DNA from: Bordetella parapertussis
GTDB lineage: Bacteria > Pseudomonadota > Gammaproteobacteria > Burkholderiales > Burkholderiaceae_B
Assembly (NCBI GenBank): GCA_945883615.1
Contig: CAMCYB010000013.1
Location: 1-40,727, forward strand
Length of the DNA stretch: 40,727 nt
Direction of reading: 5' to 3'
Shown here one piece after another: positions 4,172 through 35,336 of this stretch. Made by a program: the position numbers and the translations under genes. The notes beneath the pieces were generated by a model. The model was not told the DNA's origin. It saw only the letters and a program-made list of their open reading frames with translations, and did not search any database. Numbering within the stretch: position 1 is the stretch's first letter; every line of letters starts with the position of its first letter.

Positions 4172-4211
4172 TTTAAATCTGTTTTAAATCAAATTTAAAT
4201 TAGATTTAAAT
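4172..4211. repeat. Four TTTAAAT motifs at exact 11-bp spacing
   Basis: TTTAAAT occurs at 4172, 4183, 4194 and 4205, each start 11 bp after the previous one, about 64-103 bp upstream of the inferred rnpB start and in the uup-rnpB divergent gap. Three copies extend to the palindrome ATTTAAAT. The spacing puts every motif on nearly the same DNA face, as expected for curved DNA or a cooperative binding array. Confidence 0.8.
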
Positions 4212-4274: not shown

Positions 4275-4682
4275 GCGATGCAAGCTGGGCAATCGCGGCG
4301 CTTTGCGTCGAGGAAGGTCCGGACTCCATAGGGCAGGGTAACGGCTAACGGCCGTCCAGTGGCCTAGTGCGCAAGCGCTAGAACGCTGAGGAATAGGACC
4401 ACAGAGACGAGACTGCAGTGGGGGTCGCCGTTAAGGCGACTCTGATACGGTCATCACCGTATTGAGCGGCCTGCTTGCAGGCTCAACATTGCAGGGTGAA
4501 ACGCGGCAACCTCTACCCGGAGCAACACCAAATAGGCATGCGTGCGATGCAAATCGTGACGGGCGGCACCGTCCAAGTATGCGGGTAGGTGGCTAGAGAC
4601 ACATAGCAATATGTGTACCAGAGGAATGATTGCCGACCTACGCAAGTGGGTTTACAGAATCCGGCCTATAGGCTTGCATCGC
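4275..4682 (+). ncRNA. rnpB: RNase P RNA (type A)
   Basis: The catalytic RNA of RNase P, which matures tRNA 5' ends. The closing P1 helix is visible as GCGATGCAAGC (4275-4285) pairing perfectly with GCTTGCATCGC (4672-4682). Conserved blocks follow in order: GAGGAAGGTCCGGACTCC then ATAGGGCAGGGT near 4310-4340, ACAGAGACGAGACTGCAG near 4400, GGTGAAACGCGGCAACCTC near 4495, AAATAGGCATGC near 4530, and ACAGAATCCGGCCTATAG near 4654-4671. The length of about 408 nt is normal for proteobacteria. The mature ends are inferred from P1. No clear intrinsic terminator follows, only an A/T-rich stretch ending in T5 near 4702-4706. Confidence 0.96.
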
Positions 4683-4837
4683 ACTTAATAATTAATAATA
4701 ATTTTTACACAGCTTTTCTAATGTGTCACCTCTAATTGCGCCCGCAATTTACTGATTCATTTGGTTTTTTATCTTTAGGCATGATGAAGGAAGTCTGCTA
4801 AGTCCTTGTCATCATTGAAAAAACTTACAAATTTGAC

Positions 4838-6354: not shown

Positions 6355-6623
6355 TGGGGCGAATCAATATTGTGCTTGCTGTGATGTTGATGTTGTCAGC
6401 CTTGTCGCTGGTTACAGCACGCTATCAGGGCCGGCAACTGTTTATGCAAAATGAACAGCTCAAGTCACAAGGGCGAGAGCTCGATATAGATTGGCGACGC
6501 TTGCAAATCGAACGTGCCGAGTTGTCTCGAAATGCACGCGTTGATCAATTGGCACGTGATATTTTGAAAATGGTACCTATTGTTCCTGAACGCACAATTT
6601 ACATTCAAGGGGTTACGCCTTGA
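6354..6623 (+). CDS. ftsL: Cell division protein FtsL
   Basis: An 89-residue bitopic inner-membrane protein. Residues 4-22 form one membrane segment and about 30-65 a predicted periplasmic coiled coil (LFMQNEQLKSQGRELDIDWRRLQIERAEL). FtsL forms a complex with FtsB and FtsQ and helps activate FtsWI at the septum. Identification rests on size, topology and position between rsmH and ftsI, since FtsL sequences diverge strongly. ATG 6354 overlaps the rsmH stop. An in-frame TTG three bases upstream is less likely. The stop TGA overlaps the TTG start of ftsI. Confidence 0.92.
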   Translation: MGRINIVLAVMLMLSALSLVTARYQGRQLFMQNEQLKSQGRELDIDWRRLQIERAELSRNARVDQLARDILKMVPIVPERTIYIQGVTP

Positions 6624-19425: not shown

Positions 19426-20652
19426 ATGACTCGTGACATCAAAGATCTGATCGTCGCCCTTGATATCGGCACCACAAAAATTGTGGCTGTCGTTGCAGAG
19501 GTATTGCCAGAAGGGCGATTTGAAGTGCTCGGTTTAGGACAGCATGAATCTAAGGGAATGCGCAAAGGTGTCGTTGTCAATATTGAAGCGACCGTGGCGT
19601 CAATACAGCGTGCCCTTGAAGAAGCTGAATTGATGGCTGACTGCAAAATTCGAGATGTATATACCGGCATTGCAGGTAATCACATTCGTAGTTTTAACTC
19701 AAGCGGTATGGTGGCCGTCAAAGATAAAGAAGTGAATGCTGCCGATGTCGCACGGGTGATTGAAACGGCCAAAGCAGTCAACATACCGACTGATCAGCAA
19801 GTGTTGCATGTATTAACGCAAGAATTCATTGTCGATAGCCAAGAAGATATTCGTGAGCCAATTGGTATGAGTGCGTTAAGACTTGAAGTCAAAGTGCATA
19901 TCGTAACGGGTTCAGTGAGCGCCGCACAAAACATCATTAAATGCGTACGTCGTTGTGGGCTTGAAGTGCAAGATCTTATTTTGCAACCGCTGGCATCAAG
20001 CTTGGCTTGCTTAACTGCTGATGAAAAAGAGTTGGGTGTCGTGCTGATTGATATCGGCGGGGGCACTACCGATGTGGCGATATATACCGGTGGTGCAATT
20101 CGTTATACCGCTGTGTTTCCCATTGCAGGCGATCAAATCACTAACGATATCGCTGCGATGTTGCGTACACCCACCCCAGATGCTGAAGAAATTAAATTGC
20201 GCTATGGCGTGGCTAAGCAGGTGTTGGCAAGCCCAGACGAAAGCGTTGAAGTGCCTGGCCTGGGCGATCGTGGGCCAAGGCTTGTCAACCGACAAGCCTT
20301 GGGTGCCGTGATTGAACCTCGTGTCGAGGAATTGTTTGGGTTGGTGCAGCAAGATATTCGTGAGCAAGGTTTTGAAGATCTGTTGGCCTCAGGTGTCGTG
20401 TTGACGGGTGGTACAGCACTGATGCCAGGCATCGTGGAATTGGCTGAAGACGTTTTCCTAAAGCCTGTTCGTGTTGCGATTCCAGAGTACGACGGCAGTT
20501 TGGCTGATGTGATGCGTAACCCAAGGTTTTCAACGGTAATGGGTTTGCTGGGTGAGGCACGTATTCAACGCTTAAGAGGTCGAAAAGTGTCACAGCAAAC
20601 CGGCAGTTTTTCAAAAGTACTCGCGCGAATGCGTGAATGGTTTATGAATTGA
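19426..20652 (+). CDS. ftsA: Cell division protein FtsA
   Basis: An actin-fold ATPase that tethers FtsZ to the membrane and recruits later division proteins. In the 408-residue sequence, phosphate-binding loops are at VALDIGTTKI (10-19) and LIDIGGGTTDVAIY (207-220), with LTGGTALMPGI near 327-337. The C-terminal SFSKVLARMREWFMN is an amphipathic membrane-targeting helix. It is the last gene before the only large gap in the cluster, a 251-bp stretch containing an octanucleotide repeat. Confidence 0.97.
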   Translation: MTRDIKDLIVALDIGTTKIVAVVAEVLPEGRFEVLGLGQHESKGMRKGVVVNIEATVASIQRALEEAELMADCKIRDVYTGIAGNHIRSFNSSGMVAVKDKEVNAADVARVIETAKAVNIPTDQQVLHVLTQEFIVDSQEDIREPIGMSALRLEVKVHIVTGSVSAAQNIIKCVRRCGLEVQDLILQPLASSLACLTADEKELGVVLIDIGGGTTDVAIYTGGAIRYTAVFPIAGDQITNDIAAMLRTPTPDAEEIKLRYGVAKQVLASPDESVEVPGLGDRGPRLVNRQALGAVIEPRVEELFGLVQQDIREQGFEDLLASGVVLTGGTALMPGIVELAEDVFLKPVRVAIPEYDGSLADVMRNPRFSTVMGLLGEARIQRLRGRKVSQQTGSFSKVLARMREWFMN

Positions 20653-20731
20653 AATAGATTGAAGTGTTTTGAAGTAATCAGTGCCTGACTTGGCGCGGTG
20701 TTAATTGAGTATCAAACCGTGCACAGTCTGT

Positions 20732-20835
20732 AACATAGTAATAAAGTAACAAATTAACAAATTAACAAATTAACAAAGTAACAAAGTAACAAAGTAACAA
20801 AGTAACAAAGTAACAAAGTAACAAAGTAACAAAGT
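20732..20835. repeat. Octanucleotide tandem repeat between ftsA and ftsZ
   Basis: Thirteen contiguous 8-bp units: AACATAGT, AATAAAGT, three AACAAATT, then eight identical AACAAAGT (20772-20835), followed by a partial AACAATT. Every frame contains TAA stops, so it is not coding. The homogeneous block of eight is the type of array that changes length by slipped-strand mispairing. It ends 68 bp before the ftsZ start. Confidence 0.95.
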
Positions 20836-20903
20836 AACAATTAACCAACTATTTATTTATTCTTTATTTTCAGAAGTACTAAGACTTGAGGGAGTCGATA
20901 CTG

Positions 20904-22073
20904 ATGTTTGAAATGTTAGAAAATCCACATAAAACAACGGTTATTAAAGTCGTTGGGGTTGGGGGCGCAGGTGGTAATGCGGTTTCCCATATGATGCGTT
21001 CTGGTGTTCAGGGCGTCGATTTTATTTGCTGCAATACCGATGCTCAAGCGTTAGCTGCAACTGGCGCACCCGTGCAAATTCGTTTAGGTCGTAGTGGTCT
21101 CGGGGCAGGCGCTAAACCTGACCAAGGACGAACCGCCGCTGAAATGGCACGCGAAGAAATTCGTGCCGCTTTAACGGGTGCCAACATGGTTTTCATCACG
21201 GCAGGTATGGGTGGTGGTACCGGTACGGGTGCAGGTCCAGTTGTGGCTGAAGTAGCCAAAGAGCTGGGTATTTTGACAGTGGGTGTGGTGACTAAGCCTT
21301 TCTCATTTGAAGGCAATCGTCGTGCCAAAATGTCTGGAGACGGTATTGCCGAGCTTTCAAAACACGTTCATTCATTGATCGTTGTTTTAAATGAAAATTT
21401 ATATACCCTGATGTCTGACGACGCAACGCAAGAAGATTGCTTCCGTGCAGCCGATGACGTGTTGCATAACGCTTGTGCCGGCATTGCTGAAATTATTAAC
21501 GTTGAAGGTAACGTTAACGTTGACTTTGAAGACGTTAAAACCATTATGGGTGAGCAGGGCCAAGCCATGATGGGAACGGCCATTGCCGGTGGCGAAGATC
21601 GTGCACTTGTCGCAGCCAAGCAAGCGGTTGCATGTCCATTGCTTGAAGGTGTTGATTTGCAGGGTGCTAAAGGTGTATTGGTTAACATCACGGCTAGCCG
21701 TTCGCTCAAAATGCGCGAAACCCGTCAAATTATGGACCACATTCAAGGTTTTGCTGCAGATGATGCGACAGTCATCTTCGGTACAGCTTACGACGAGTCG
21801 ATGGGTGACAACTTGCGCGTGACCGTGGTTGCAACAGGTTTGGGTCGTGTTGCGAAGCGCCCACACTTGGTTCATAGCCAAGACAAGCAAGAAGCTTTGC
21901 GCACAGGTACAGATAATGTGCCGTTAATGACCGATGCACGTGCACAAGATCTTCAAATACCGACCGTAATGCGCAACCCGCGTACCCAGGCTTCGGCTCA
22001 GGTACGAGCACTCGAGACTTCTGGAATGGAGCACTATGACATTCCTGCATTTTTGCGTCGCCAAGCTGACTAA
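20904..22073 (+). CDS. ftsZ: Cell division GTPase FtsZ
   Basis: The tubulin homologue that forms the Z ring. In 389 residues the GTP-binding parts are visible: [15 protein letters not shown] (16-30), the tubulin signature GGGTGTG (103-109) and the T7-region after FEDVKTIM. The C-terminal tail ends [12 protein letters not shown], the conserved peptide that binds FtsA and other partners. ATG 20904 is chosen because GAGGGAG lies 9 nt upstream; an in-frame TTG at 20886 would place that site inside the gene. It is separated from ftsA by 251 bp with the octamer repeat, so it probably has its own promoter, although none is obvious. Confidence 0.98.
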
Positions 22074-22135
22074 GTTTTAATTTAGGAAAGCGATTCCCTC
22101 AGTTACCTACCTCACTTGAGGCGGGGTGACACGTT

Positions 22136-22168
22136 GGCGCCACGCTGTTTTGACAACGGTGTGGCGCC
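22136..22168. repeat. 12-bp hairpin between ftsZ and lpxC
   Basis: GGCGCCACGCTG (22136-22147) pairs with CGGTGTGGCGCC (22157-22168) around a 9-nt TTTTGACAA loop, with two G-T wobbles. It starts 63 bp after ftsZ. No T-run follows, so it is not a standard intrinsic terminator. It may protect the ftsZ mRNA 3' end or be an RNase or Rho-linked boundary. Confidence 0.7.
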
Positions 22169-22207
22169 ATCGTCGGCGACAAAAGACTGGTGCGGCGTCA
22201 AAGAAAT

Positions 22208-22236
22208 ATGACGACTGCAAAAAAAAGCATTACAAT
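22208..22236 (+). promoter_or_regulatory. Probable lpxC promoter
   Basis: ATGACG (22208-22213) and TACAAT (22231-22236) are separated by 17 bp, 38 bp before the lpxC ATG. Four of six -35 and five of six -10 positions match sigma70 consensus. It lies after the hairpin, consistent with lpxC being transcribed independently of ftsZ. Confidence 0.55.
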
Positions 22237-22273
22237 ATAAAAATCGTATTTAATTCAAAGGGTTGGCTTTTAA

Positions 22274-23197
22274 ATGTTTAGTCAACGCACGATCAAAAAG
22301 ATTGTTTCTACTATTGGTGTTGGGCTTCACTCTGGTCAGCGCGTTGAGCTTACGCTTCGCCCTGCAGCTGTGGGTACGGGTATTGTTTTTCACCGCGTCG
22401 ATTGTGAGCCGGTCGTTGACTTGCCTGCCAACGCGTCAATGGTGAGCGACACCCGTATGGCTTCAGTCTTACAAGCTCAAGGTGTTCGCGTTTCAACAGT
22501 CGAGCACTTGATGTCAGCGTTGGCGGGTTTGGGTATTGATAACCTGCATATCGATATCAACGCTGAAGAAGTTCCTATTATGGACGGTAGCGCGGCAACC
22601 TTTATCTACCTGTTGCGTTCTGCCGGCTTAGAAGAACAGCGTGCGCCAAAGCAGTTTATTCGCGTACTTAAAACAGTTGAAATTTCCGAGGGCGAAGGCG
22701 CAAATAAGAAATGGGCACGTTTAGAGCCACATGAAGGTTTTGCCTTATCTTTTTCAATTGATTTTAAACATCCCGCCATTGATGCAACAGCCGGTTTTGC
22801 TGAAATCGATTTTGCCGATCAGTCTTACATCAAAGAAATTGCCCGCGCACGTACGTTTGGTTTTGTAAGCGAAGTTGAAGCGCTCAGGTCAATGGGTTTG
22901 GCACGTGGCGGCAGCCTAGAAAACGCCATTGTGCTTGATGAATATAGGGTGCTCAATACTGATGGTTTGCGCTACGACGATGAGTTTGTTAAACATAAAA
23001 TTTTAGATGCCATTGGTGATTTATATTTAATCGGTAAGCCACTGGTCGCACGCTATGTTGCATGTAAATCCGGTCATGCCATCAATAACCAGCTTGCGCG
23101 TAAATTGCTTGCCCAGCAAGATGCCTGGGAATTCGTGACCTATGAGTCAGTTGAAAAAGCACCTGCTGCCTTCAAGCAAGCTTGGCAGCTTGCCTAA
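22274..23197 (+). CDS. lpxC: UDP-3-O-acyl-GlcNAc deacetylase
   Basis: LpxC catalyses the committed step of lipid A synthesis, a zinc-dependent deacetylation in the cytosol. The 307-residue protein carries the zinc ligands His78 ([10 protein letters not shown]), His241 and Asp245 (HKILDAIGD), plus the catalytic His268 in SGHAINN. Length and start ([21 protein letters not shown]) match the family (E. coli 305). An AAAGGG site lies about 12 nt before the ATG. Its place next to ftsZ is conserved in gamma- and betaproteobacteria. It proves an outer membrane with lipid A synthesis capacity. Confidence 0.97.
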
Positions 23198-23203
23198 TAT
23201 AAT

Positions 23204-23249
23204 AGCCCTTCATTAAAGCCCTTCATCAAAGCCCCTCATTAAAGCCCTT
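23204..23249. repeat. 13-bp tandem repeat across the dciA stop
   Basis: AGCCCTTCATTAA (23204-23216), AGCCCTTCATCAA (23217-23229), AGCCCCTCATTAA (23230-23242) and a partial AGCCCTT (23243-23249) stand in tandem between lpxC and the convergent dciA. The last copies include the dciA stop codon (23239-23241) and its final codons. Confidence 0.85.
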
Positions 23250-23709
23250 TGCGGCGAGCAATAAGCTTAGCGACAGCATCTGCCAAAGGGCCCGGTTCTA
23301 ACGAATCGGCTAGCAACACAAAATGCCCCAGATCACTTCCATCTATGGGGCGTGCCTCTTTCACGAGATGAACCGCTGCAGGTACAGGCGGTTCGGCTAA
23401 AACCTTAATCGTTACCGCATCAACTTTATGACCCAGCTCAGTCATTCGTTGTTGCATTCTGGGCGCAAATTGTCGTAATTTTGCTGCTTGTGCAGAATCT
23501 TGTGTTCCGAGCTTGAGTTCACCATCGCCCCATTTGAGCACCACAAAATGTTTTTGTAAGGTGGGTGGCAGTTGTTGAGCGAGGCTTTCTTGCAAAGATA
23601 AAAGTCGTTGTGCTGTCATTAAAACGGAAGCACTCATGTTTTCTTTGCTTAACCACCCAAGCACCTGCGCTGAGACGGAATTGCCTACCCTAGAGTTTGA
23701 GCGACTCAT
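23239..23709 (-). CDS. dciA: DUF721 / DciA-like protein
   Basis: A 156-residue protein with a DUF721-type core in the N-terminal two thirds: SAQRLLSLQESLAQQLPPTL-like helix, then the strand-rich VVLKWGDGELKLGTQDSAQAAKLRQFAPRM as recognisable pieces. DciA is the ancestral loader of the DnaB replicative helicase in bacteria lacking DnaC or DnaI; that function is family knowledge, not shown here. The position between lpxC and an M23 peptidase plus secA is the same as in Bordetella-type genomes. No strong ribosome site is visible before ATG 23709. Its C-terminus is encoded by a tandem repeat, so residues just before the stop may vary. Confidence 0.8.
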   Translation of the reverse strand: MSRSNSRVGNSVSAQVLGWLSKENMSASVLMTAQRLLSLQESLAQQLPPTLQKHFVVLKWGDGELKLGTQDSAQAAKLRQFAPRMQQRMTELGHKVDAVTIKVLAEPPVPAAVHLVKEARPIDGSDLGHFVLLADSLEPGPLADAVAKLIARRKGL

Positions 23710-23743
23710 ATCTTGTTAAGGTTCGTAAAATTAAAAGTCATAT

Positions 23744-24385
23744 GTGAACAGTCTAATGCAACCAACAATTGCTGTCAGGGTTAAGGGTTTTGGGCTAAAG
23801 AGTTTGATCATCTGCGGCACTTTTTTTGCAGTCGGTTTAGCGCCTTTTTTTGCACAACCCTCTCAGCAAGTCAAAAAACAAACGCATACAAATGTAGAGG
23901 GTAGGGCTTATCTAGCAACTTATTCATTAAAGCAGGCGTTGAGCCAAATGTACTTAAATAGAGTTAAAAAATACTTAAATTTACCTATCTTAGGTGAAAT
24001 GCGACTAACTTCAAAGTTTGGCGTGAGAAAAGATCCGATCAGTGGTGAGTTAAAAAAACACCTCGGAATTGATGTGTCAACCTCAGCAGGCACCCCTATT
24101 ATTGCTGTTGCAGGCGGTCAGGTTGTCAAGGCGGGGTGGCACCACATATATGGGTTAAATATAGAAATTGAGCATACCCCAACATGGCGAACACGTTATG
24201 CCCACGCTCGTTTGCTCTACGTTGTAACGGGGCAATACGTAGAGGCCGGGCAATTTATCGGCCAGGTCGGGTCAACAGGTCGTTCAACGGGACCACATTT
24301 GCATTTTGAAGTATGGCGAAATGGCGAGCCTATTGACCCATTTTTGGTGGTTCAAGGGATGCCTAAAATGGGTAACCGCCAATAA
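23744..24385 (+). CDS. M23-family (LytM) metallopeptidase
   Basis: A short exported or membrane-anchored peptidoglycan endopeptidase candidate of 213 residues (209 if it starts at ATG 23756 instead of GTG 23744; neither start has a clear ribosome site). A hydrophobic segment at about 18-37 is a signal or anchor. The LytM domain (about 84-205) keeps all zinc ligands: His106 and Asp110 in KKHLGID, and His187 in GPHLHFE, with His154 (RYAHA) and His185 as catalytic partners. It is therefore likely active, unlike the degenerate EnvC/NlpD type. It lacks the long coiled coil or LysM domains found in many relatives. It lies divergent from dciA and 66 bp upstream of secA. Confidence 0.88.
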   Translation: MNSLMQPTIAVRVKGFGLKSLIICGTFFAVGLAPFFAQPSQQVKKQTHTNVEGRAYLATYSLKQALSQMYLNRVKKYLNLPILGEMRLTSKFGVRKDPISGELKKHLGIDVSTSAGTPIIAVAGGQVVKAGWHHIYGLNIEIEHTPTWRTRYAHARLLYVVTGQYVEAGQFIGQVGSTGRSTGPHLHFEVWRNGEPIDPFLVVQGMPKMGNRQ

Positions 24386-24451
24386 GGCGTGAAGCCTGCT
24401 GTACACTTATAGCTTCGATTATGGGCGCGTTCGCTCTGGGCTTTGACACGC

Positions 24452-27208
24452 ATGATTCCATTACTTAAAACACTATTTGGTAGCCGTAATGATCGCTTGA
24501 TTAAGCAGCTTAAACGGCAGGTTATAGCGATTAATGCGCTTGAAGCGCCGATGACAGCTCTGAGCGACGACGCGCTTAAAGCTAAAACACCTGAACTTAA
24601 AGCCAAGCTTTTAGCGGGTACACCTTTAGACAATTTATTGCCTGAGGCGTTTGCCGTTGTTCGCGAAGCAGGTAAGCGAGTATTCGGTATGCGTCACTTT
24701 GATGTGCAGTTAATGGGTGGCATGGTTCTCAACAGCGGCAAAATTGCTGAAATGCGTACGGGTGAAGGTAAAACCCTGATGGCTACCTTGCCTGTTTACC
24801 TCAACGCACTATCTGGGCGTGGCGTTCATGTGGTGACGGTAAACGATTACTTGGCACGACGCGATGCCGAGTGGATGGGGCGTCTCTACAGCTACCTAGG
24901 CTTAACGACTGGCGTCGTGGTGCCACACCAAGACAGCGAAGAAAAACGCGCAGCGTATCAAGCTGATATCACTTACGGCACCAACAACGAGTTTGGTTTT
25001 GATTATTTACGCGACAATATGGAACATCGTGCCGTAGACCGTCGGCAACGGGGTTTAGTGTTTGCAATTGTCGACGAAGTTGATTCAATTTTGATCGATG
25101 AGGCTCGTACGCCGCTAATTATTTCTGGCCAAGCTGAAGACTTTACTGAGCAGTACATGCGTATGAACGCTGTGCCGCCAAAACTCAAGCGCATGGCTTC
25201 AGAATCTAAACCTAACGAGGCCGATCCAGAAGGTGATTTTTGGGTTGACGAAAAGCACCAACAAATTTATTTGTCTGAAGACGGCCACGAGCATGCAGAA
25301 CAGATATTGACACAAATTGGTTTGTTACCTGAAGGTCAATCGCTCTATGACCCGCGTAATATCACCTTAATGCATCACTTGATGGCTGCTCTGCGCGCAC
25401 ATTATTTGTTCTTTCGTGACCAACATTATGTGGTTCAAAACGGCGAAGTCGTTATTGTTGACGAGTTTACGGGTCGTTTGATGGTGGGTCGGCGCTGGTC
25501 TGATGGTTTGCATCAAGCCGTTGAAGCTAAAGAAAAGGCAACCATTCAACTAGAAAATCAAACGTTAGCCTCTATTACGTTCCAAAACTATTTTCGTATG
25601 TACGAAAAATTGTCTGGTATGACGGGTACGGCTGATACGGAAGCCTACGAATTCCAAGAAATTTATGGTCTTGAAACGGTTATTGTGCCCACAAACCAAG
25701 CCATGATTCGCCTTGATCAAAACGATCAAATTTTCAAAACTGATCATGAAAAATACGCTGCAATTGTTAATGACATACGCGAATGCCAAACCAAAGGCCA
25801 GCCCGTTTTAGTTGGAACAACCAGTATTGAAAATTCTGAATTATTGTCTCACGCACTTAACGAAGCGGGGCTTAAGCATGAAGTGCTTAATGCTAAACAG
25901 CACGCGCGCGAAGCTGATATTGTGGCGCAAGCGGGTAAGCCCGGGCAAATTACCATTGCGACAAACATGGCGGGTCGAGGTACTGACATCGTCTTAGGCG
26001 GTAACGTTGAAAAACAAGTCGATATGCTGATGCGTGACGAATCGTTATCAGGCCCTGACCGGCAGGTCAAAATTGATTTGTTGCGCTCTGGCTGGCAAGC
26101 CCTCAATCTTCAGGTAAAAGCAGCCGGTGGGTTGCGCATCATCGGTACTGAGCGCCACGAGTCGCGTCGTATCGATAACCAATTACGAGGTCGTGCAGGT
26201 CGTCAAGGTGACCCGGGTGCCTCACGTTTTTATCTTTCACTTGAAGATTCGCTTATGCGCATCTTTGCCGGTGATCGCGTTAGAAGCATTATGGAACGCT
26301 TAAAACTGCCAGAAGGTGAACCGATTGAAGCAGGCATGGTGTCTCGCTCTATCGAGTCAGCGCAACGCAAAGTTGAAGGTAGAAATTTTGATATGCGTAA
26401 GCAGTTACTTGAATACGACGATGTGGCTAATGATCAACGTAAAATTATTTACGCGCAACGTAACCAGGTGCTTGAAGCTGAATCAGTAAGCGGAATGGTC
26501 GAAGGCTTACGTGATGGTGCCATTAAAGACTTGGTTGAAGAATATGTGCCCGAAGGGTCGGTTGAAGAGCAGTGGGACCTTCCCGCTTTACAAAAAATTC
26601 TTGAATCTGATTGGCAGCTAAGTGTGCCTATCGTGCAACAGATCGAATCAGCAAAACAGGCTGATGAATCTGATGTGTTGGCTTGGGTAATTGATGCGGC
26701 TCGTACCGCATACGAAGGAAAAATAGCCACAGTCGGTATTGATTCATGGCAACCCTTTGAGCGGTCTGTTCTGTTGCAGGTGATTGATAATCAGTGGCGC
26801 GAGCATTTGGCTGCACTCGATCATTTGCGTCAGGGTATTCATTTGCGTGGTTATGCACAGAAAAACCCCAAGCAAGAATATAAACGAGAAGCGATTGAGC
26901 TCTTTTCATCAATGTTGCAGCGTATACGCGATGATTTAGCCAAAATAGTGTTGACTGTAAAAGTAGAAAGCCCCGAACAAGTGGCGTTGGCTGAACAAGA
27001 GGCTTCGGCATCGCATTTAAAAAATGTGAGCTTTGTGCATACAAACCTCGATGACGAACCAGATAGAGAGCAGCCTTTAGCACAAGGTATGCCTTCAGAT
27101 GAGGGTCAATCTACTGTTCGCCATGTCGCCCCAAAAGTGGGTCGCAACGACCCCTGCCCTTGTGGAAGTGGAAAAAAGTACAAACAATGTCACGGTAAAT
27201 TGAGTTAA
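24452..27208 (+). CDS. secA: Preprotein translocase ATPase SecA
   Basis: SecA drives secretory proteins through SecYEG using ATP. The 918-residue protein has Walker A MRTGEGKT (101-108), the DEAD-type Walker B in [15 protein letters not shown], helicase motifs [12 protein letters not shown] and [15 protein letters not shown], and [28 protein letters not shown] split across motif VI. The C-terminus holds the zinc site [16 protein letters not shown], which binds SecB and lipids. ATG 24452 is chosen because the family starts M(I/V)xLLKxxxGSRNDR; an in-frame TTG lies 9 bp upstream. Only a weak ribosome site is visible. The stop is 3 bp before the ackA start. Confidence 0.98.
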
Positions 27209-27211
27209 GCC

Positions 27212-28465
27212 TTGCCTAAAAATCAAGCTGCCGCACACCGCTTGGCGGGCCAAGTATTGGCAGTCAATATTGGTTCGTCTAGCCTCAAATTTGCGCTTTA
27301 TGCCGCGCACACTGACGGTCGAGCAGTTGATGTCGCGCATGTTGCGGGCCTAATTGAAGGGCTGCAAGAGACGCCTCAAGACGGTCATATCGCTGAACTG
27401 ACATTGACATTGAAAGAAAAGGGCGTATCGCAACGTTTAACCATTACCTGTGGCACAGGTGAGACAACATTAGAGGCAGCTTTAGCCAAACTACGTGTTG
27501 AAATCAATCGCGTTTTAAACGGTCGTGAACTATTAGCTGTTGCGCATCGCGTTGTGCATGGTGGCATCTTATATAGCGGTCCGGTTGAGTTGACCGCTGA
27601 GGTTATTCAAGCCTTGTCGGTACTTAACCCGTTGGCGCCCCTTCACCAGCCTTTTAACTTATTAGGTGCGCAAGCGATGATGCGTGCTTTTGATAAAACG
27701 CCGCAATTTGCATGTTTTGACACAAGCTTTCATCAAACACTTTTACCACTTGAAACCCATTTTGGTTTACCAGAATCGTATTTTGAGCAGGGTGTTCGAC
27801 GCTATGGTTTTCATGGGCTTTCCTATGATTATGTGTCAAGCCGCTTAATGAGTCATACCAAAGCCGCCCAAGGCCGTTTACTCATGGCACACCTTGGAAA
27901 TGGCGCAAGCTTGTGTGCTGCGATTGCGGGGCGAAGTGTAGCCACCACAATGGGTTTTTCAGCGTTAGACGGTCTTCTTATGGGTACCCGTTGCGGGTCT
28001 ATTGACCCAGGCTTACTGTTGTATTGGTTGCAGCAGGGTTGGTCAACAGAAAAGATATGTGAACTGTTGTATAAAAAATCAGGTTTGCTAGGCGTCTCAG
28101 GTGTTTCTTCAGATATGCGCAGTTTGCACGATTCTAAATTACCACAAGCTGCCTTTGCGATTGATTTGTTTGTGCACCGTATCGTTCGAGAGGCAGGTGC
28201 ATTGACCGCTGTTATGGGCGGTATCAATGCAATTGTTTTTACAGGTGGAATCGGCGAGAACGATGCCGATATACGAGACCGTGTTTGCGATGCCCTGAGT
28301 TACCTCGGGGTGTATATAGAGCCTAGTTTAAATATCAACGCGCGCGGCGACCGCATTGCGGCCATACACTCTGATGATTCGCCCGTTGAAGTTTGGGTTG
28401 TTCCCACTGATGAGGGTCGCGTTGCTGCAGAACAAGCTATCAAGTTATTGCAGCGACGCGTTTAA
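27212..28465 (+). CDS. ackA: Acetate kinase
   Basis: Acetate or propionate kinase of the ASKHA fold, interconverting acyl phosphate plus ADP and acid plus ATP in the cytosol. The 417-residue protein shows VNIGSSSLKF (18-27), AHRVVHGG with Arg113, FDTSFHQTL with Asp170 and His174, RRYGFHGLSYDYV, HLGNGAS, FSALDGLLMGTRCGSIDPG and FTGGIGEN. TTG 27212 is used as the start because it follows the secA stop by 3 bp and suggests coupling; TTG 27242 or 27257 would also leave the core intact, and no ribosome site decides. There is no pta beside it. It ends 16 bp from the convergent livM with no terminator. Confidence 0.95.
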   Translation: MPKNQAAAHRLAGQVLAVNIGSSSLKFALYAAHTDGRAVDVAHVAGLIEGLQETPQDGHIAELTLTLKEKGVSQRLTITCGTGETTLEAALAKLRVEINRVLNGRELLAVAHRVVHGGILYSGPVELTAEVIQALSVLNPLAPLHQPFNLLGAQAMMRAFDKTPQFACFDTSFHQTLLPLETHFGLPESYFEQGVRRYGFHGLSYDYVSSRLMSHTKAAQGRLLMAHLGNGASLCAAIAGRSVATTMGFSALDGLLMGTRCGSIDPGLLLYWLQQGWSTEKICELLYKKSGLLGVSGVSSDMRSLHDSKLPQAAFAIDLFVHRIVREAGALTAVMGGINAIVFTGGIGENDADIRDRVCDALSYLGVYIEPSLNINARGDRIAAIHSDDSPVEVWVVPTDEGRVAAEQAIKLLQRRV

Positions 28466-28481
28466 TTGTAAAGAACAACGA

Positions 28482-29471
28482 TTAAAGTCGAATATTCAGG
28501 CGGTGTGAAATTTCGCCAACAATACCACGACGGAACGCCAACACACAGATCACAAAAATAGCACCAGTGGCGATTGTGCTCCACCCGCCCAAGTCAGCAA
28601 GGTAGTTTTGTAAGTTGATAATGATGGCTGCACCTAAAACAGGGCCCCAAAGGGTACCAATGCCGCCTAGAATCGTCATTAAAACAGCTTCACCTGACAT
28701 TTGCCAGAATACATCTGTTAATGAGGCTAACTGTAAAACTAAACTTTTAAGACCACCGCCTAAGCCTGCCAGGCCCGCTGAAATAGTGAAAGCCATTAAT
28801 TTATAGCGATCAACGTCGTAGCCTAAAGAAATGGCGCGAGGTTCATTTTCACGAATAGATTTGAGCACTTGGCCAAAGGGTGACTGAACAACGCGTTGAA
28901 TTAACAAAAACGCCAAGATAAAAACGCCCAAAGCAAACCAGTACATATGCGACGAGTTTGATAAATTAATCAAACCTAAAAAATAGCCACGTGGTACGCC
29001 TTGAATACCGTCTTCACCGTTGGTAAATGGAACCTGTGTTGCAATGAAGTAAACAACCTGTGCTAAAGCTAAAGTGATCATGGCAAAATAAATGCCCTGG
29101 CGACGAATAGCAAGCGAACCAAAAACATAACCCATGGCGGTCGAAACTATAACCCCTAAAAGTAGGCCGATCTCTGGGGTAACACCCCATTCTTTCATAG
29201 CGTAGGCGGTGACATAAGCCGAAGCGCCAAAAAATGCCGCATGACCAAACGATAACAAACCTGAATAACCCAATAACAAATTGACTGACGCGGCAAAAAT
29301 AGCAAAACAAAACACTTTCATCATGAATAAATCATAGATTGCGTTTTGAAAAGGCAAAAGGGCAAGTAAAACAAAAACGATTAATGTGACAGTGTTGATC
29401 ACCGTGGTGTTCACCACATTGGTCTTGCCAACAGCGCCTTGCGCAGATGATTGTGTTGTTGATGTGTTCAT
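28482..29471 (-). CDS. livM: Branched-chain amino acid-type ABC permease, LivM family
   Basis: A 329-residue integral membrane permease with 8-10 hydrophobic segments and the LivM signature NLLLGYSGLLSFGHAAFFG near residues 63-81. It pairs with LivH as the membrane channel of a HAAT-family importer; the coupling-loop region is SIRENEPRAISLGYDVDRYK. ATG 29471 is chosen over an upstream in-frame start at 29531 that would run back into livH; AAAGG lies upstream, overlapping the livH stop. Last gene of the five-gene transporter operon, 13 bp after livH. Confidence 0.9.
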   Translation of the reverse strand: MNTSTTQSSAQGAVGKTNVVNTTVINTVTLIVFVLLALLPFQNAIYDLFMMKVFCFAIFAASVNLLLGYSGLLSFGHAAFFGASAYVTAYAMKEWGVTPEIGLLLGVIVSTAMGYVFGSLAIRRQGIYFAMITLALAQVVYFIATQVPFTNGEDGIQGVPRGYFLGLINLSNSSHMYWFALGVFILAFLLIQRVVQSPFGQVLKSIRENEPRAISLGYDVDRYKLMAFTISAGLAGLGGGLKSLVLQLASLTDVFWQMSGEAVLMTILGGIGTLWGPVLGAAIIINLQNYLADLGGWSTIATGAIFVICVLAFRRGIVGEISHRLNIRL

Positions 29472-29484
29472 GATGAATTGACCT

Positions 29485-30399
29485 TTAACGAACTTTGCCA
29501 AACAAACCGGCTGGTTTGAGCAAAAGCACAATAATCATGATGATGAAAATTGAGACGGAAGAAGCTTGTGGATAAAACACTTTTGTTAACCCCTCAATTA
29601 CACCTAAACCAAGGCCTGTCAAAATTGAACCTGATATCGAACCCATGCCGCCAATAACGACCACCGCAAACACAACAATAATAAGATCTGATCCCATAAT
29701 GGCGGTCACTTGATAAATCGGTGCGGCGAGCACGCCAGCAAACGCAGCGAGGGCACACCCTGCACCGTACGTCAGGGTAATAATCAGGGGGACATTAACG
29801 CCCAACGCTTGCAATAATCTTGGGTTTTCTGTGCCAGCGCGAAGCAAACTACCCAAATTAGTACGCTCGATAAAGTACCACGTTGCAAAACATGCAGCCA
29901 GGGCCATACCAACAACCCATAAGCGATACCAAGGAATAAATAATTCACTGACGCGCATACCGCCGCGTAAGAGATCTGGAACGGGGTAGCTATTACCTAA
30001 AACGCCAAACCAATGGCGAAATAAGCCTTCCGTAACCAATGCCAGACCAAATGTAAGAAGTAAGCCGTACAAATGATCAAGGTGGTAGAGGCGTTTAAGC
30101 ATGGTTTTTTCAATCACAATGCTAAACAAACCCACTATTAACGGTGCGACAACAAGTGCTAACCAATAGGGTAATTGCAAGTCAGGCATACCTACCCAAC
30201 CACCCACTTGGGTGAGGCCAATCCAAGCCACCATGGCGCCCAACATATAAAGGGCGCCATGGGTAAAGTTGATCACGTTGAGCAACCCGAATATGACCGC
30301 TAAGCCTAAGCTTAAGAGCGCATAGAAAGAGCCATTGATCAAACCAATCAATAACTGTGAAACTAGCGCCTGCGGAGATACGCCGAACAACTCAAACAT
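29485..30399 (-). CDS. livH: Branched-chain amino acid-type ABC permease, LivH family
   Basis: A 304-residue permease with about eight membrane segments and family motifs: LLIGLINGSFYALLSLGLAV, NFTHGALYMLGAM, RAGTENPRLLQALGVNV (coupling helix) and VVIGGMGSISGSILTGLGLG. A GAGGAATAATC ribosome site precedes ATG 30399. It is 29 bp downstream of the substrate-binding protein gene and forms the heterodimeric channel with LivM. The transported compound is not determinable from the permease. Confidence 0.92.
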   Translation of the reverse strand: MFELFGVSPQALVSQLLIGLINGSFYALLSLGLAVIFGLLNVINFTHGALYMLGAMVAWIGLTQVGGWVGMPDLQLPYWLALVVAPLIVGLFSIVIEKTMLKRLYHLDHLYGLLLTFGLALVTEGLFRHWFGVLGNSYPVPDLLRGGMRVSELFIPWYRLWVVGMALAACFATWYFIERTNLGSLLRAGTENPRLLQALGVNVPLIITLTYGAGCALAAFAGVLAAPIYQVTAIMGSDLIIVVFAVVVIGGMGSISGSILTGLGLGVIEGLTKVFYPQASSVSIFIIMIIVLLLKPAGLFGKVR

Positions 30400-30428
30400 G
30401 ATTATTCCTCAAATAAAAAACAAGTCAA

Positions 30429-31652
30429 TTAAGACTTCACACCGGTTACAAGACTGCACTTTGACTGCGACAGAGGCTGTGTGGCTTCTTTTGCAGGAAT
30501 GACTTGTAAAACAGACGCGACGTCATTTTTATTTTTCGACTCTTTAGGGGTTTTAACTTTAAGCAGATACATGTCATGCTCAAACTTACCATCAGCGCGA
30601 ATCACACCTTTAAACAAACCGTCATCAATTGGGGTTGATTTAAGTTGCTTCATGACCGCATCTGAATTGTCAGTACCCGCTGTTTTAATGGCTTGCAAGT
30701 AGTTCATGGTTGCAGAGTAGACACCCGCTTGAACTGAAGTGGGTGCATCACCATTAAATCTTTTCATAAAGCGGTCAGAAAACTTGCGATTTGCGTCTGA
30801 GAAGTCCCAGTACCAACCCACTGTAAAGTTCATACCAGACGTGTCTTTCAAGCCCAAAGCTTTAATGTCGCTGATAAACATAAGTAAGGGTACGATGGTT
30901 TGCTTCGAACCCACGATGCCTAACTCAGCCGCTTGCTTAATTGAACCAATTGTGTCGCCACCTGCATTAGCTAAAGCAATGACCTCAGCTTTTGATGACT
31001 GAGCTTGTGCCAAATAAGAAGCAAAGTCTGTGGTTTTGATGGGGTGCAAGACGCTACCTAACACTTTACCGCCGCCAGCTTCAACGACCACCGATGCGTC
31101 TCGTTGTAAGGTGTGACCAAACGCATAATCTGCAGTTAAGAAATACCAGGTTTTTTTACCTGTTGCCATCACGCCAGCAGCTGTGCCGTGTGCTAGAGCG
31201 TAGGTGTCATAAACATAATGAATGGTATAAGCATTGCAACGCTCGTTGGTAATAGGCAAAGATGCAGCGCCCGTCACGATGGCAATACGTTTGAGTTGGT
31301 CCGCGACTTCCATTGCGGCCAAAGCTGACGCCGTTGAAACATTACCTATAATCATGTCAACGTTGTCACGCTCAAACATTTCGCGTGCTTTAGAAGCAGA
31401 TAAGTCAGCTTTTGATTGGTGGTCAGCTGAGATGACTTTAATAGGCTTACCTAAAACGGTACCGCCAAAATCTTCAACAGCCATTTGAGCCGCTAAAACA
31501 GCACCAGGACCTTCAATGACTGAAAAAATACCTGACAAGTCGGTTAAAACACCGATATTGACCGAGTCGTTACTAAGGCCTTGAGCTGAGGCAACACCAA
31601 CGCTTGCAAATAAGGCGCCAGCAATAAGTTTAGAGAGATAACGCTGTTTCAT
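30429..31652 (-). CDS. Periplasmic substrate-binding protein (Peripla_BP_6 type)
   Basis: A 407-residue exported type I periplasmic binding protein. Residues 1-23 are a signal peptide with cleavage expected after VASA; there is no lipobox cysteine. The mature part starts with VNIGVLTDLSGIFSVIEGPG, followed by AAQMAVEDFGG and GNVSTASALAAMEVADQLK, typical of HAAT-family binding proteins. Two cysteines, in NERCNAY and near the C-terminus (SKCSLV), could form a disulfide. A GGAG site precedes ATG 31652. It sits between livF and livH. The relatives of this subgroup are often not leucine binders, and the neighbouring CoA-ligase operon suggests a carboxylic acid or other ligand, which is inference. 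Confidence 0.9.
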   Translation of the reverse strand: MKQRYLSKLIAGALFASVGVASAQGLSNDSVNIGVLTDLSGIFSVIEGPGAVLAAQMAVEDFGGTVLGKPIKVISADHQSKADLSASKAREMFERDNVDMIIGNVSTASALAAMEVADQLKRIAIVTGAASLPITNERCNAYTIHYVYDTYALAHGTAAGVMATGKKTWYFLTADYAFGHTLQRDASVVVEAGGGKVLGSVLHPIKTTDFASYLAQAQSSKAEVIALANAGGDTIGSIKQAAELGIVGSKQTIVPLLMFISDIKALGLKDTSGMNFTVGWYWDFSDANRKFSDRFMKRFNGDAPTSVQAGVYSATMNYLQAIKTAGTDNSDAVMKQLKSTPIDDGLFKGVIRADGKFEHDMYLLKVKTPKESKNKNDVASVLQVIPAKEATQPLSQSKCSLVTGVKS

Positions 31653-31699
31653 CTTTTAGTCTCCAGAAATAACGGCATAGCCGCAAATTTTAAAAATTG

Positions 31700-32410
31700 T
31701 TAAACACCAAGAAGGGTTTCTAAAGTTTTGCGGTTTTCTTCGAGCCGCTCTTTTTCAACCATTTTGACGACTTCGCCATGTTCGATGACATAGTTTCGGT
31801 CAGCCAATTTTGAAGCAAATCTAAAGTTTTGTTCAACCAACACAATAGTAAAACCGCGTTCACGCAATGTGCGTACGATTTCACCTAACTTTTGAACAAT
31901 GACGGGTGCTAAGCCTTCGGTGATTTCATCAAGCAAAAGCAAGTTTGCACCGGTTCGTAAAATTCGTGCGATGGAAAGCATTTGTTGCTCGCCACCTGAA
32001 AGACGCCCGCCTGGGCTTGAGCGGCGTTCTTTTAAATTGGGAAACATCTCATAAATTTCTTCAACTGACAAGCCTGTTCCTTGCCCCACTTCCGGGGGCA
32101 ACATTAAGTTCTGCTCACACGATAGACTTGCAAAAATACCGCGCTCTTCGGGGCAATAACCAATGCCGAGCCGTGCAATTTCGTGAGTTGGCTTGCCAAT
32201 TACTTCAACGCCGTTGACTTTAATTGAGCCTTCTGCACGGCCAATCAAACCCAAAATTGAACGAAGTGTGCTGGTGCGGCCCGCACCATTTCGACCGAGC
32301 AGGCAAACAACTTCACCACGGTGAACCGTTAAATCAATGCCATGTAAGACATGAGACTCACCGTACCATGCGTTGAGGTCTTTGATTTCGAGTGCGATAG
32401 TGGCAGACAT
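31700..32410 (-). CDS. livF: ABC transporter ATP-binding protein, LivF family
   Basis: A 236-residue cytosolic ATPase of the HAAT transporter. Walker A reads GRNGAGRTS (39-47) with Arg45 in place of the usual invariant lysine (codon CGC at 32278-32276). The Q-loop region CPEERGIFASLS, signature LSGGEQQMLSIARIL, Walker B LLLLDEITEGL (Ile in place of the usual Pro) and the His-switch position VLVEQNF follow. ATG 32410 is chosen over an in-frame TTG at 32428. The gene follows livG after an 88-bp gap containing a repeat and precedes the binding-protein gene by 47 bp. Confidence 0.9.
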   Translation of the reverse strand: MSATIALEIKDLNAWYGESHVLHGIDLTVHRGEVVCLLGRNGAGRTSTLRSILGLIGRAEGSIKVNGVEVIGKPTHEIARLGIGYCPEERGIFASLSCEQNLMLPPEVGQGTGLSVEEIYEMFPNLKERRSSPGGRLSGGEQQMLSIARILRTGANLLLLDEITEGLAPVIVQKLGEIVRTLRERGFTIVLVEQNFRFASKLADRNYVIEHGEVVKMVEKERLEENRKTLETLLGV

Positions 32411-32441
32411 TAAGCGTAAATTACCCAATAGTTATGAACAA

Positions 32442-32489
32442 TTCATTCAATTAAATGCATGAGCATTGTGAATGAATGTTGTGAATGAA
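32442..32489. repeat. Inverted and direct repeats between livG and livF
   Basis: TTCATTCA (32442-32449) is inverted relative to TGAATGAA (32469-32476), and TTGTGAATGAA occurs twice 13 bp apart (32466-32476, 32479-32489). The elements can fold into alternative stems in the mRNA between the two ATPase genes. Weakly stable A/U pairing; no T-run. Confidence 0.6.
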
Positions 32490-32498
32490 CAGTGTAAA

Positions 32499-33275
32499 TT
32501 AATGGCCGGCTAACTCAGTATCGGCAGAACCCATGTAAGCTTCCATGACTTGGGGGTTACTAGAGACTGTTTCATAATTGCCTTCAGCAATGATCTCACC
32601 CCGTTGCAAGACCGAAATCGTGTCAGCAATATTGGAAACTACTTTCATGTTGTGTTCCACCATAATAATGGTGCGACCAGCCGACACCTTGCGAATCAGT
32701 TCAGCCACGCGCTCAACGTCTTCATGACCCATGCCTTGGGTTGGTTCGTCAAGCAACATAACCTCTGGATTCATGGCAACTGTCGTGGCTATTTCTAGCG
32801 CTCGCTTTCGACCATAAGGTAAATTGACAGCAGTTTCTTCCGCATAATCAACAAGACCCACTTGTTCAAGTGCATCAAGCGCGCGCTCATTTAAAACATT
32901 TAAAGAGGCGTCACTTTTCCAAAAATGAAAAGAGGTGCCTAATTGTCTTTGCAAACCAATGCGTACATTTTCTAGCACTGACATATGTGGGAAAACAGCT
33001 GAAATTTGAAATGATCGCACAACACCCTCACGTGCAATCTGTGAGGGATTTTGACTGGTAATGTCAACCCCATTAAACAGTATTTGACCCTTAGTGGGGG
33101 TCAAAAACTTGGTGATCAAATTAAAGCACGTGCTTTTACCCGCACCATTGGGACCAATGATGGCATGAATGGTGTGGCGCTTCACTTTTAAATTGACGTC
33201 ATTTACCGCAACAAAACCCAAAAACTCTTTGGTTAATTGACGCGTTTCAATGACATGTTCAGAGGAGTTTTTCAT
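32499..33275 (-). CDS. livG: ABC transporter ATP-binding protein, LivG family
   Basis: A 258-residue cytosolic ATPase. Walker A is intact (GPNGAGKST, 41-49), followed by GVVRSFQISAVFPHMSVLENV, signature LPYGRKRALEIA, Walker B VMLLDEPTQGM and the switch histidine in IIMVEHNM. The C-terminal VSSNPQVMEAYMG is the usual LivG tail. It is the first gene of the transporter operon and pairs with LivF, whose Walker A is altered, so this subunit may carry the intact ATP site lysine of the heterodimer. No ribosome site is visible before ATG 33275. Confidence 0.92.
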   Translation of the reverse strand: MKNSSEHVIETRQLTKEFLGFVAVNDVNLKVKRHTIHAIIGPNGAGKSTCFNLITKFLTPTKGQILFNGVDITSQNPSQIAREGVVRSFQISAVFPHMSVLENVRIGLQRQLGTSFHFWKSDASLNVLNERALDALEQVGLVDYAEETAVNLPYGRKRALEIATTVAMNPEVMLLDEPTQGMGHEDVERVAELIRKVSAGRTIIMVEHNMKVVSNIADTISVLQRGEIIAEGNYETVSSNPQVMEAYMGSADTELAGH

Positions 33276-33323
33276 AGGAGAGTTTATAACCCACTAAACA
33301 TTTGTTTTCAACTATTTATTTAA

Positions 33324-33392
33324 AGTGTTTACCCTAATCTTGTAACTTGATTTTGCATTAAATCAGGCAACAAGATTAGAACTTTAAACACT
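33324..33392. repeat. Long imperfect hairpin upstream of livG
   Basis: AGTGTTTA (33324-33331) and TAATCTTGT (33335-33343) pair with TAAACACT (33385-33392) and ACAAGATTA (33370-33378); an inner pair TGATTT (33348-33353) with AAATCA (33360-33365) closes the top. The 69-bp structure is interrupted by small internal loops. It lies 49 bp before livG in the 268-bp gap after the acyl-CoA operon; the rest of this gap is A/T-rich with a short direct repeat near 33500 and no other feature I can name. Confidence 0.75.
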
Positions 33393-33543
33393 GCCTTTAA
33401 CACTGAAGTAGGCCGATCATTAGGCTGCGCAAATAAGCGTTCTCAAATTTGCCACGGTTAATCGCAAAAGGTTATTAATTAATTGCTAAATATTATTTAA
33501 TAATCACTAAATAATCACTAACTTATTACATAAAAGTTGCCAA

Positions 33544-35331
33544 TTAAACCCCACCTGTTTCGATACCTTGCCGACCTGCCGTAATCGCGGCAACCAAACC
33601 TAAAGAGGGAAGCAAGACATGTTGACCGTAGAAATACGCACTGGCTTTTTTTTGCAAACCAAAAGACGTCTTGTTATCTGTTTCATGGCAAATTAAGGCT
33701 GCACGTGCCATCATCCAACCGCCTAATACATGGCCGGCGAGCATAAGTAGCGGTACTGAACCAAAATAAGCCGCCGGTGCATCAGTTTTACCCTGGCTCA
33801 GCATGTAGTCAAAGCATACTTTTAATGCATCATGACCCGCCTTGAGGTTTGAACCTAAAACTCTTAAATCGCTATCTTGAGTTTGATCAAGCGAGGCGAC
33901 GGTGGTGGCCATATCATTTAATAAAATGTGGGCGCATGCACCTTGGTCGCGTAACAACTTGCGCCCCAATAAATCGTTGGCTTGTATTGCGGTGGTGCCT
34001 TCGTAAATGGTCGTGATGCGGGCATCGCGAAGTAATTGTGCGGCGCCAGTCTCTTCAACATAACCCATGCCGCCATGCACTTGTACCCCGTTTGAGGCAA
34101 TATCAACAGACAGTTCAGTACACCACCCTTTTATAATCGGAATGAGAAAGTCAGCTCTCAATTGAGCCGCTTGTGCAAGCGTTAAGTCAGGTGACCGTGC
34201 GGCGATATCAAGTTGCGCCGCAGCTTCATAAGCCAGCGCTCGCATGGCTTGAATGCGTGAACTCATTGATGCCAAGATACGTCTGACATCGGGGTGATAA
34301 GCAATTGGAGCATGTGCAGCGTTACCATCTGGGGGTGTCAGTAACGTTTTGCCCTGTACTCGATCATATGCATACCAGTTGGCTTGCTGCAAGGCCCGTT
34401 CAGACACTGCAATACCTTGTAAGCCTACGTTTAAGCGTGCATGGTTCATCATGGTGAACATGTATTCTAGGCCTCGGTTTGGCTCACCCACCAAATAGCC
34501 GACTGCACCGCCTTGGTCACCATAACTCATAACCGCTGTGGGGCTACCATGAATACCCAGTTTGTGTTCAAGTGAAATGCACTGAACGTCGTTGCGCTGC
34601 CCAATTGAGCCATCGGCGTGAACTAAAAATTTAGGCACAATAAAAAGCGAAATACCTTTTACGCCAGCTGGTGCTCCCGGTATGCGCGCTAAAACGAGAT
34701 GAATAATGTTTTCAGTGAGGTCATGCTCACCGTAGGTAATATAAATTTTGATACCACTCAAAAGATAATAGTCGTCTTTTGGTTCGGCTTTGGTCGTGAC
34801 AGCCGCCAAATCAGAGCCCGCTTGTGACTCTGTTAGGTTCATGGTGCCAGCCCATTCACCTGAAATGAGTTTGCTTAGATAGATCTTTTTTTGTGCTGCT
34901 GAACCATGGTGCTCAATGGCATGAATCGCACCGGCCGTCAGCATCGGACACAAAGCAAAAGACATGCTGGCGCTGTGCCACATTTCATTGGTGGCGGTTG
35001 CCAACACTTCAGGCAAACCTTGCCCATCATGTTCAATGTTGCCGGCCAAGCTATTCCAGCCTGCTGCCACGTATTGTTGATAAGCTTCTTTAAAACCAGG
35101 TGATGTTTTAACCAGATTGCCAGGCAAAAGCGTGGCGCCATGTTCATCACTCACGCTGTTTAAGGGCGAAATTACACCCGAAGCAAATTTGCCTGCTTCT
35201 TCAATAATCGCTTCAACCAAGTCTTCAGAGAATTCCTCATAACCAGGCAACTGACGAATGGCTTGGGCATCAATCAGTTGCTCAAGAACAAAACGCATAT
35301 CATCTTGTGGGGCAATGTACTCAACGGGCAT
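33544..35331 (-). CDS. Acyl-CoA dehydrogenase, large (DmdC-like) class
   Basis: A 595-residue FAD enzyme that would form an alpha,beta double bond in an acyl-CoA. It belongs to the long class with an extra N-terminal segment (MPVEYIAPQDDMRFVLEQL) and C-terminal domain, which includes 3-methylmercaptopropionyl-CoA dehydrogenase DmdC but also general short- and medium-chain enzymes. Seen: MNLTESQAGSDLAAV (164-178, FAD loop), EHKLGIHGSPTAVM, VHGGMGYVEE and the catalytic Glu444 in IYEGTTAIQ. An AGGA site lies 10 nt before ATG 35331, 5 bp after the crotonase gene. It is the last gene of the three-gene operon. Confidence 0.92.
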   Translation of the reverse strand: MPVEYIAPQDDMRFVLEQLIDAQAIRQLPGYEEFSEDLVEAIIEEAGKFASGVISPLNSVSDEHGATLLPGNLVKTSPGFKEAYQQYVAAGWNSLAGNIEHDGQGLPEVLATATNEMWHSASMSFALCPMLTAGAIHAIEHHGSAAQKKIYLSKLISGEWAGTMNLTESQAGSDLAAVTTKAEPKDDYYLLSGIKIYITYGEHDLTENIIHLVLARIPGAPAGVKGISLFIVPKFLVHADGSIGQRNDVQCISLEHKLGIHGSPTAVMSYGDQGGAVGYLVGEPNRGLEYMFTMMNHARLNVGLQGIAVSERALQQANWYAYDRVQGKTLLTPPDGNAAHAPIAYHPDVRRILASMSSRIQAMRALAYEAAAQLDIAARSPDLTLAQAAQLRADFLIPIIKGWCTELSVDIASNGVQVHGGMGYVEETGAAQLLRDARITTIYEGTTAIQANDLLGRKLLRDQGACAHILLNDMATTVASLDQTQDSDLRVLGSNLKAGHDALKVCFDYMLSQGKTDAPAAYFGSVPLLMLAGHVLGGWMMARAALICHETDNKTSFGLQKKASAYFYGQHVLLPSLGLVAAITAGRQGIETGGV

Positions 35332-35336
35332 GGTGA

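Follow-up and report, generated by a model that had tools for sequence, protein, structure and literature searches.

Contingency-locus repeats and long simple sequence repeats (LSSR) of Haemophilus and Neisseria consist of short homogeneous units in the 5' regions of genes, expand by slippage and mostly govern surface traits. LSSR are treated in the introduction of PMC4679880. The same paper describes AGAT repeats in the 5' untranslated region of Moraxella catarrhalis uspA2, whose copy number has been tied to expression experimentally, and TAACTGA heptamer arrays of marine Beggiatoaceae, Cyanobacteria and Bacteroidetes (MacGregor 2015, PMC4679880). The heptamer arrays lie upstream of start codons, many of them forward and in some cases ahead of essential genes; contigs sometimes end within them, and the proteins S1, Csp and Csr were proposed as their binders (PMC4679880). 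For ftsZ, antisense control by StfZ and DicF has been described in E. coli, and StfZ shows that there are other ways in which the ftsA-ftsZ junction can affect ftsZ (PMC9628754). Among the open-licence literature matches listed, judged by titles and the starts of abstracts, neither an array before ftsZ nor an Alcaligenaceae ftsZ-leader hairpin appeared.

The window (the whole stretch of 40,727 nucleotides that was analysed) carries a forward-strand octamer array in the 251-base spacer between ftsA and ftsZ (Table 1). The first-pass annotation had described 13 octamers, the eight 3'-most identical, and this was borne out by reading of the units and by TRF (20730-20840, period 8, 13.9 copies, 95% matches, score 187); the 68 bases said to separate the array from the ftsZ ATG were confirmed exactly. 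The unit of the uniform block, AACAAAGT, is a rotation of GTAACAAA. The score was the highest of six TRF rows in the window (runner-up 78), and the best values obtained from 50 dinucleotide-shuffled windows and from 2000 shuffled copies of the spacer were 65 and 81, respectively, so that the array is not explained by chance. It is thus made of homogeneous head-to-tail units beyond chance, as expected of a slippage-type repeat. Its layout comprises degenerate 5' units, a small subfamily of three AACAAATT units and a uniform 3' block, which, as far as sequence can tell, are the traces expected from repeated expansion. A plasmid search with the spacer gave no match.

Table 1. Features of the ftsA-ftsZ junction and neighbouring genes in the window.
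Feature	Position	Strand	Remarks
ftsA	19426..20652	+	Pfam; protein identical to that of sister genome G072 over 408 residues
predicted hairpin 5' of array	20687..20728	+	GCGCGGT/ACCGTGC; G072 equivalent GCACGT/ACGTGC
octamer array	20732..20835	+	AACATAGT, AATAAAGT, 3 x AACAAATT, 8 x AACAAAGT
array end, partial unit AACAA and flank	20836..20846	+	AACAATTAACC; common to G072
ribosome-binding site	20883..20896	+	GACTTGAGGGAGTC, in loop of small predicted hairpin; 47 bases 3' of array
ftsZ	20904..22073	+	Pfam; ATG at 20904
lpxC, next gene 3' of ftsZ	22274..23197	+	Pfam

FtsQ, FtsA, FtsZ, LpxC, MraZ and an MraW methylase were confirmed in the window by Pfam. The spacer had been described as the one gap of notable size within the division cluster. 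This holds from mraZ to ftsZ as far as checked, since the apparent gap at 6354-6620 in the list of ORFs of at least 100 aa is occupied by an ORF of 90 aa where ftsL would be expected (which, from gene order, we take to be ftsL); a 200-bp gap between ftsZ and lpxC lies beyond. The TTG at 20886, given by the ORF lister as the start of ftsZ, falls within the ribosome-binding-site motif. This motif was compared across unique ftsA-ftsZ spacers (104 from 123 loci, 140 after addition of 40 loci), of which 85/140 contain GAGGGAGTC, 36/140 the full GACTTGAGGGAGTC and 17/140 GACTTGTGAGGGAGTC, a variant with a longer loop; by sequence, the ftsZ ribosome-binding site of the window is intact. The predicted hairpin 5' of the array is weakly supported because it was compared in two sequences only, the window and its sister. 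A consensus scan of 20560-20960 yielded no sigma-70-like site, against 1.1 expected from shuffles; for a betaproteobacterium, such a negative carries little weight. In the same interval, two terminator-like sites were detected (0.2 expected), both with poor T tails. One of them (20681-20696) lies between ftsA and the array and, if a real terminator, would alter which transcript contains the array.

Other short spacer arrays are present in the window. A 13-bp array (AGCCCTTCATTAA x3.5, TRF score 78) at 23204-23249 directly follows lpxC and overlaps the end of a minus-strand, convergent ORF (23239-23709); it had no TRF counterpart with a score of at least 45 in the corresponding stretch of the sister genome. 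AT-rich 21-bp and 11-bp repeats occupy a spacer between two minus-strand ORFs (33458-33521), where similarity to the two closest relatives is interrupted, and a short 11-bp array (4171-4211) lies near a bacterial class A RNase P RNA (4277-4684; Rfam RF00010, 206 bits).

An FtsA search of species genomes returned 80 loci, the best Alcaligenaceae genome reaching 91% identity, with Zwartia vadi at 90%, Bordetella genomosp. 4 at 90% and Sheuella amnicola at 88%. A DNA search of 268 family genomes (265 with a match) revealed two closer relatives, G072 (90-91% DNA identity to the window), which encodes an identical FtsA protein, and G077 (81-83%). In an ftsA tree of 30 taxa, the window grouped with G072 (1.000), then with G077 (1.000) and then with six Orrella-type genomes (0.948). 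Metagenomes contain FtsQ proteins that reach 97% identity to that of the window (P0001), and the lineage has therefore been sampled elsewhere. An array is present in G072 at the corresponding ftsA-ftsZ site; its contig C6 ends and its contig C194 starts within this array. The two contigs match the window at 151-20789 and 20816-35975, which puts their junction in the array (chance of a break there about 1%, assuming at least 194 contigs). The complete units read GTAACAAA, GTAAGGAT, GTAACGAA, GTAAGGAA, GTAACGAA, GTAACGAA on C6 and GTAACGAA, GTAACGAA, GTAACAAT on C194, followed by the TAACC flank common to the window. The commonest unit is thus GTAACGAA (5/9 visible complete units), while GTAACAAA occurs once (1/9), at the 5' edge; because the two contig ends share 23 bases, these nine units may include duplicates, and the break conceals the full copy number of G072. 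As 4/9 visible units differ both from GTAACGAA and from each other, homogenisation in G072 is partial as far as visible.

Given an array at the same place in the sister genome, an assembly artefact or a mis-counted array is highly unlikely. Assembly does fail at this site in G072, but the G072 assembly, separate from that of the window, shows an array on either side of the break, and the window and G072 are collinear for about 36 kb; the copy number of the window may nevertheless be mis-stated.

The ftsA-ftsZ spacer of G077 is 143 bases long and has no array, and no such array was found in the six Orrella-type relatives (G070, G073-G076 and G078). Two adjacent GTAACAAA or GTAACGAA units occur in the window alone among the 140 unique spacers, from which the G072 spacer is absent because it is split across two contigs. 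The comparisons place the origin of the array in one small, Orrella-related lineage of Alcaligenaceae. The idea of a dispersed element gained no support: the exact pattern GTAACRAAGTAACRAAGTAA was present in one of the 268 family genomes, G072, at its ftsA-ftsZ site only, and in none of the others. When one mismatch was allowed, 2/10 genomes matched, G072 with five matches, all at the ftsA-ftsZ site, and G077 with a single stray match on a different contig.

TRF arrays scoring at least 50 were found in 6/140 unique ftsA-ftsZ spacers (6/104 in the smaller set), the window array being the strongest, and in 3/74 ftsZ-lpxC spacers. The idea of the ftsA-ftsZ spacer as an array hot spot is weak on these counts (6/104 against 3/74). 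Slippage arrays in ftsZ leaders are rare among the sequences compared, with the octamer in 1/268 family genomes and any array scoring at least 50 in 6/140 spacers. Elsewhere in G072, about 20 TRF rows of at least 50 were recorded in about 386 kb sampled from 2.2 Mb (15.5 kb of the sample being N), one of which scores higher than the window array (231, period 48). A second octamer array of G072 (TTAAGTGC x4.4) lies on contig C17 (L145:350-383). The spacers of L106 and L109 (457 and 507 bases), from the tree sisters G222 and G223, hold long degenerate tandem arrays with units such as GCAGGACAAGCAGTAAG and AAGAAGTACCGAAC, which are independent and lie upstream of an intact leader hairpin. In other Burkholderiales, heptamer arrays were seen in the spacers of L041 (122 bases; CGTCAGT x4.9, TRF 54) and L040 (115 bases; AGTCGTC x3.1, TRF 35).

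The window and G072 differ at 56/205 four-fold sites in ftsA and at 62/205 in ftsZ (about 29%). From the ftsA stop to the first units, 59/79 aligned bases are identical, with indels, so the spacer 5' of the array appears to diverge about as four-fold sites do; in the 3' part, 65/75 bases are identical, mostly at the array edge and in the last ~30 bases. At half the four-fold divergence, eight unmutated units (56 bases) would have a probability of roughly 2e-4, a rough figure that points to recent expansion in the window because such a block is otherwise unlikely. The array was probably present before the window and G072 split, and the present units appear younger than this split because the window has eight identical units and G072 another commonest unit. 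At the same site, units have thus turned over between the relatives (GTAACAAA in the window, GTAACGAA in G072), which is good sequence evidence that they were renewed by slippage-type turnover since the two sister species parted; this evidence is comparative, between species, and separate from present-day copy-number polymorphism. The array is therefore real and recently expanded, and its description as slippage-prone gains support from the eight identical units, the AACAAATT subfamily and the different commonest unit in G072.

Identical, evenly spaced units would also suit iteron-like binding sites for a DNA-binding regulator of ftsZ. This explanation is very improbable, as the commonest unit differs between the sisters, the octamer spacing is off the helical repeat and the exact pattern is found nowhere else in G072. 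Turnover between species, together with the homogeneity of this slippage-type array and its position 5' of a gene sensitive to dosage, might instead be read as a sign of a contingency locus, in which copy-number changes by slippage would alter how ftsZ is transcribed or translated and thereby make FtsZ supply vary among clones; the uspA2 AGAT repeats offer a leader precedent (PMC4679880). We regard this as rather unlikely: the array has been seen in two genomes only, the known contingency loci mostly serve surface traits, no sigma-70-like site lies near the array and the ribosome-binding site is kept intact. The proposal of a phase-variable or copy-number-tuned ftsZ gained no support on the latter two grounds, and the suggestion that promoter spacing is altered is left with no recognised promoter in 20560-20960 to act on, the scan being weak evidence.

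In much of the family, the ftsZ leader contains a larger, strongly covarying hairpin upstream of the ribosome-binding-site motif. A covariance model (R1) built from 19 sequences matched 169/268 family genomes at E up to 1e-3 and left 99 without a match, in a search whose filters lose weak matches. Much of the Alcaligenaceae carries this hairpin, among them loci of Bordetella and Achromobacter. An alignment (A3) was prepared from 61/82 sources (E up to 3e-5), with no match from the window and L033, and holds 59 matches of 39 to 131 bits (e.g. L001:9303-9420, L004:9292-9418 and L002:9285-9399). Another 21 sources were not used, either as near-duplicates (L006, L109, L184 and L204) or because they were weak or unmatched (L027, L038, L090, L111-L113, L119-L124, L196, L197, L200, L206 and L210). 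Across the 59 matches, 95.2% of cells pair and 16/23 pairs have changed on both sides, in an alignment that leans towards structure because it was fitted to R1 and its sequences are related. None of 500 shuffles reached any of five measures, and pairing fell to 28-52% once the partner was displaced by one to three columns. At two pairs, G-C/A-U exchanges occur in about half of the rows, and there are many G-U steps; by its sequence pattern, this is what an RNA helix gives. Rfam gathering scans gave no match in five loci (hairpin-bearing L092, L097 and L106 among them) and, in the window, matched RNase P RNA only. By eye, a second hairpin follows the first, with arms TTTCTAAA/TTTAGAAA in Zwartia-like sequences and TCACAAAA/TTTTGTGA in Bordetella and Achromobacter.

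The family search with R1 gave no match in G072, G077 or the six Orrella-type genomes. When these eight genomes and the window were searched alone, weak matches of 12 to 29 bits emerged (window 12.3 bits, E 1.3; G073 28.8 bits, E 5e-4), which rest on the ribosome-binding-site end, the hairpin being for the most part mispaired or reduced to a few pairs. The simplest history would be a single loss in an ancestor shared by the nine genomes, before the array arose; loss or divergence of the hairpin is also seen elsewhere in the family. Destruction of the hairpin by the array is not favoured, since the hairpin is also absent from the array-free G077 and six Orrella-type genomes. About 20708-20728, the window weakly matches the left arm of the hairpin (reached by 3, 8, 26 and 44 of 500 shuffles for four references), and G072 shows no such resemblance; by this weak match, hairpin loss and array growth may be linked. 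It is improbable that a hypermutable array replaced the conserved structured leader and that its copy number now sets FtsZ supply heritably and reversibly; if true, it would amount to a contingency locus on the central cell-division gene in a free-living bacterium. The leader hairpin is itself a candidate for post-transcriptional control of FtsZ and may matter more than the array, and its absence from the Orrella-type lineage provides a useful contrast.

The description of the array as A-rich and unstructured agrees with a G+C content of 21% and a predicted minimum free energy of -0.1 kcal/mol, and the predicted fold of the whole spacer is less stable than its own shuffles (z 2.25). RNase E processes the ftsA-ftsZ mRNA of E. 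coli. An unstructured leader could be functional in its own right, whether by offering ribosomes a standby site, by binding S1 or by giving RNase E a point of entry; in the last variant, entry would free the ftsZ message from the ftsA part, and turnover would be tolerated while the array stays open. The predicted openness of the array RNA, the E. coli processing and the retention of an A-rich octamer array by G072 despite a different sequence fit such a role, as does the proposal of S1, Csp and Csr as binders of TAACTGA arrays (PMC4679880). We nevertheless consider it unlikely, because G077 and the six Orrella-type relatives do without such an array and the window array stops 47 bases short of the ribosome-binding-site motif rather than beside it.

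Our preferred reading, with a probability of about 0.62, is a slippage minisatellite in a relaxed leader that is largely passive. Slippage would have grown an octamer minisatellite between ftsA and ftsZ in a single uncultured Alcaligenaceae lineage related to Orrella, whose ancestor presumably already lacked the structured ftsZ leader hairpin, leaving the stretch under little constraint; array growth would have been tolerated because of this earlier loss. Slippage would then expand and renew the array while copy number drifts. TAA stops within the array close all three frames, and, if transcribed, the array would lengthen the ftsA-ftsZ message by a stretch that is A-rich, full of stops and unstructured; any influence on FtsZ supply is probably slight and unselected. 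The array has outlasted a divergence of about 29% at four-fold sites between two species, which could reflect selection keeping it, and its standing as the strongest of the few spacer arrays with TRF scores of at least 50 (6/140) counts against the passive reading. Two sisters with different commonest units at one site offer a natural test of whether length matters for an essential gene.

Among the systems described above, StfZ shares its location with the array, as it arises from the same intergenic stretch and the start of ftsZ, but StfZ and DicF are antisense RNAs, whereas the element found here is a tandem array (PMC9628754). The TAACTGA arrays resemble it as TAAC-containing, stop-rich short spacer arrays; they differ in unit and period, the window unit being GTAACAAA with a period of 8 rather than 7, and, according to PMC4679880, in occurring at many sites, as opposed to the single octamer site in G072, and in lying over the Shine-Dalgarno sequence, as opposed to well upstream of an intact one. 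Like the uspA2 AGAT repeats, the array is a tandem array upstream of a start codon and clear of the coding region, with 8-base instead of 4-base units and with evidence that is purely sequence-based. The array belongs to the known simple-sequence-repeat kind: it has in common with LSSR and contingency-locus repeats short homogeneous tandem units 5' of a gene and expansion by slippage, and differs from them in that no promoter was found (scan of 20560-20960), that it is known from sequence alone and that it precedes an essential gene of cell division instead of a surface gene.
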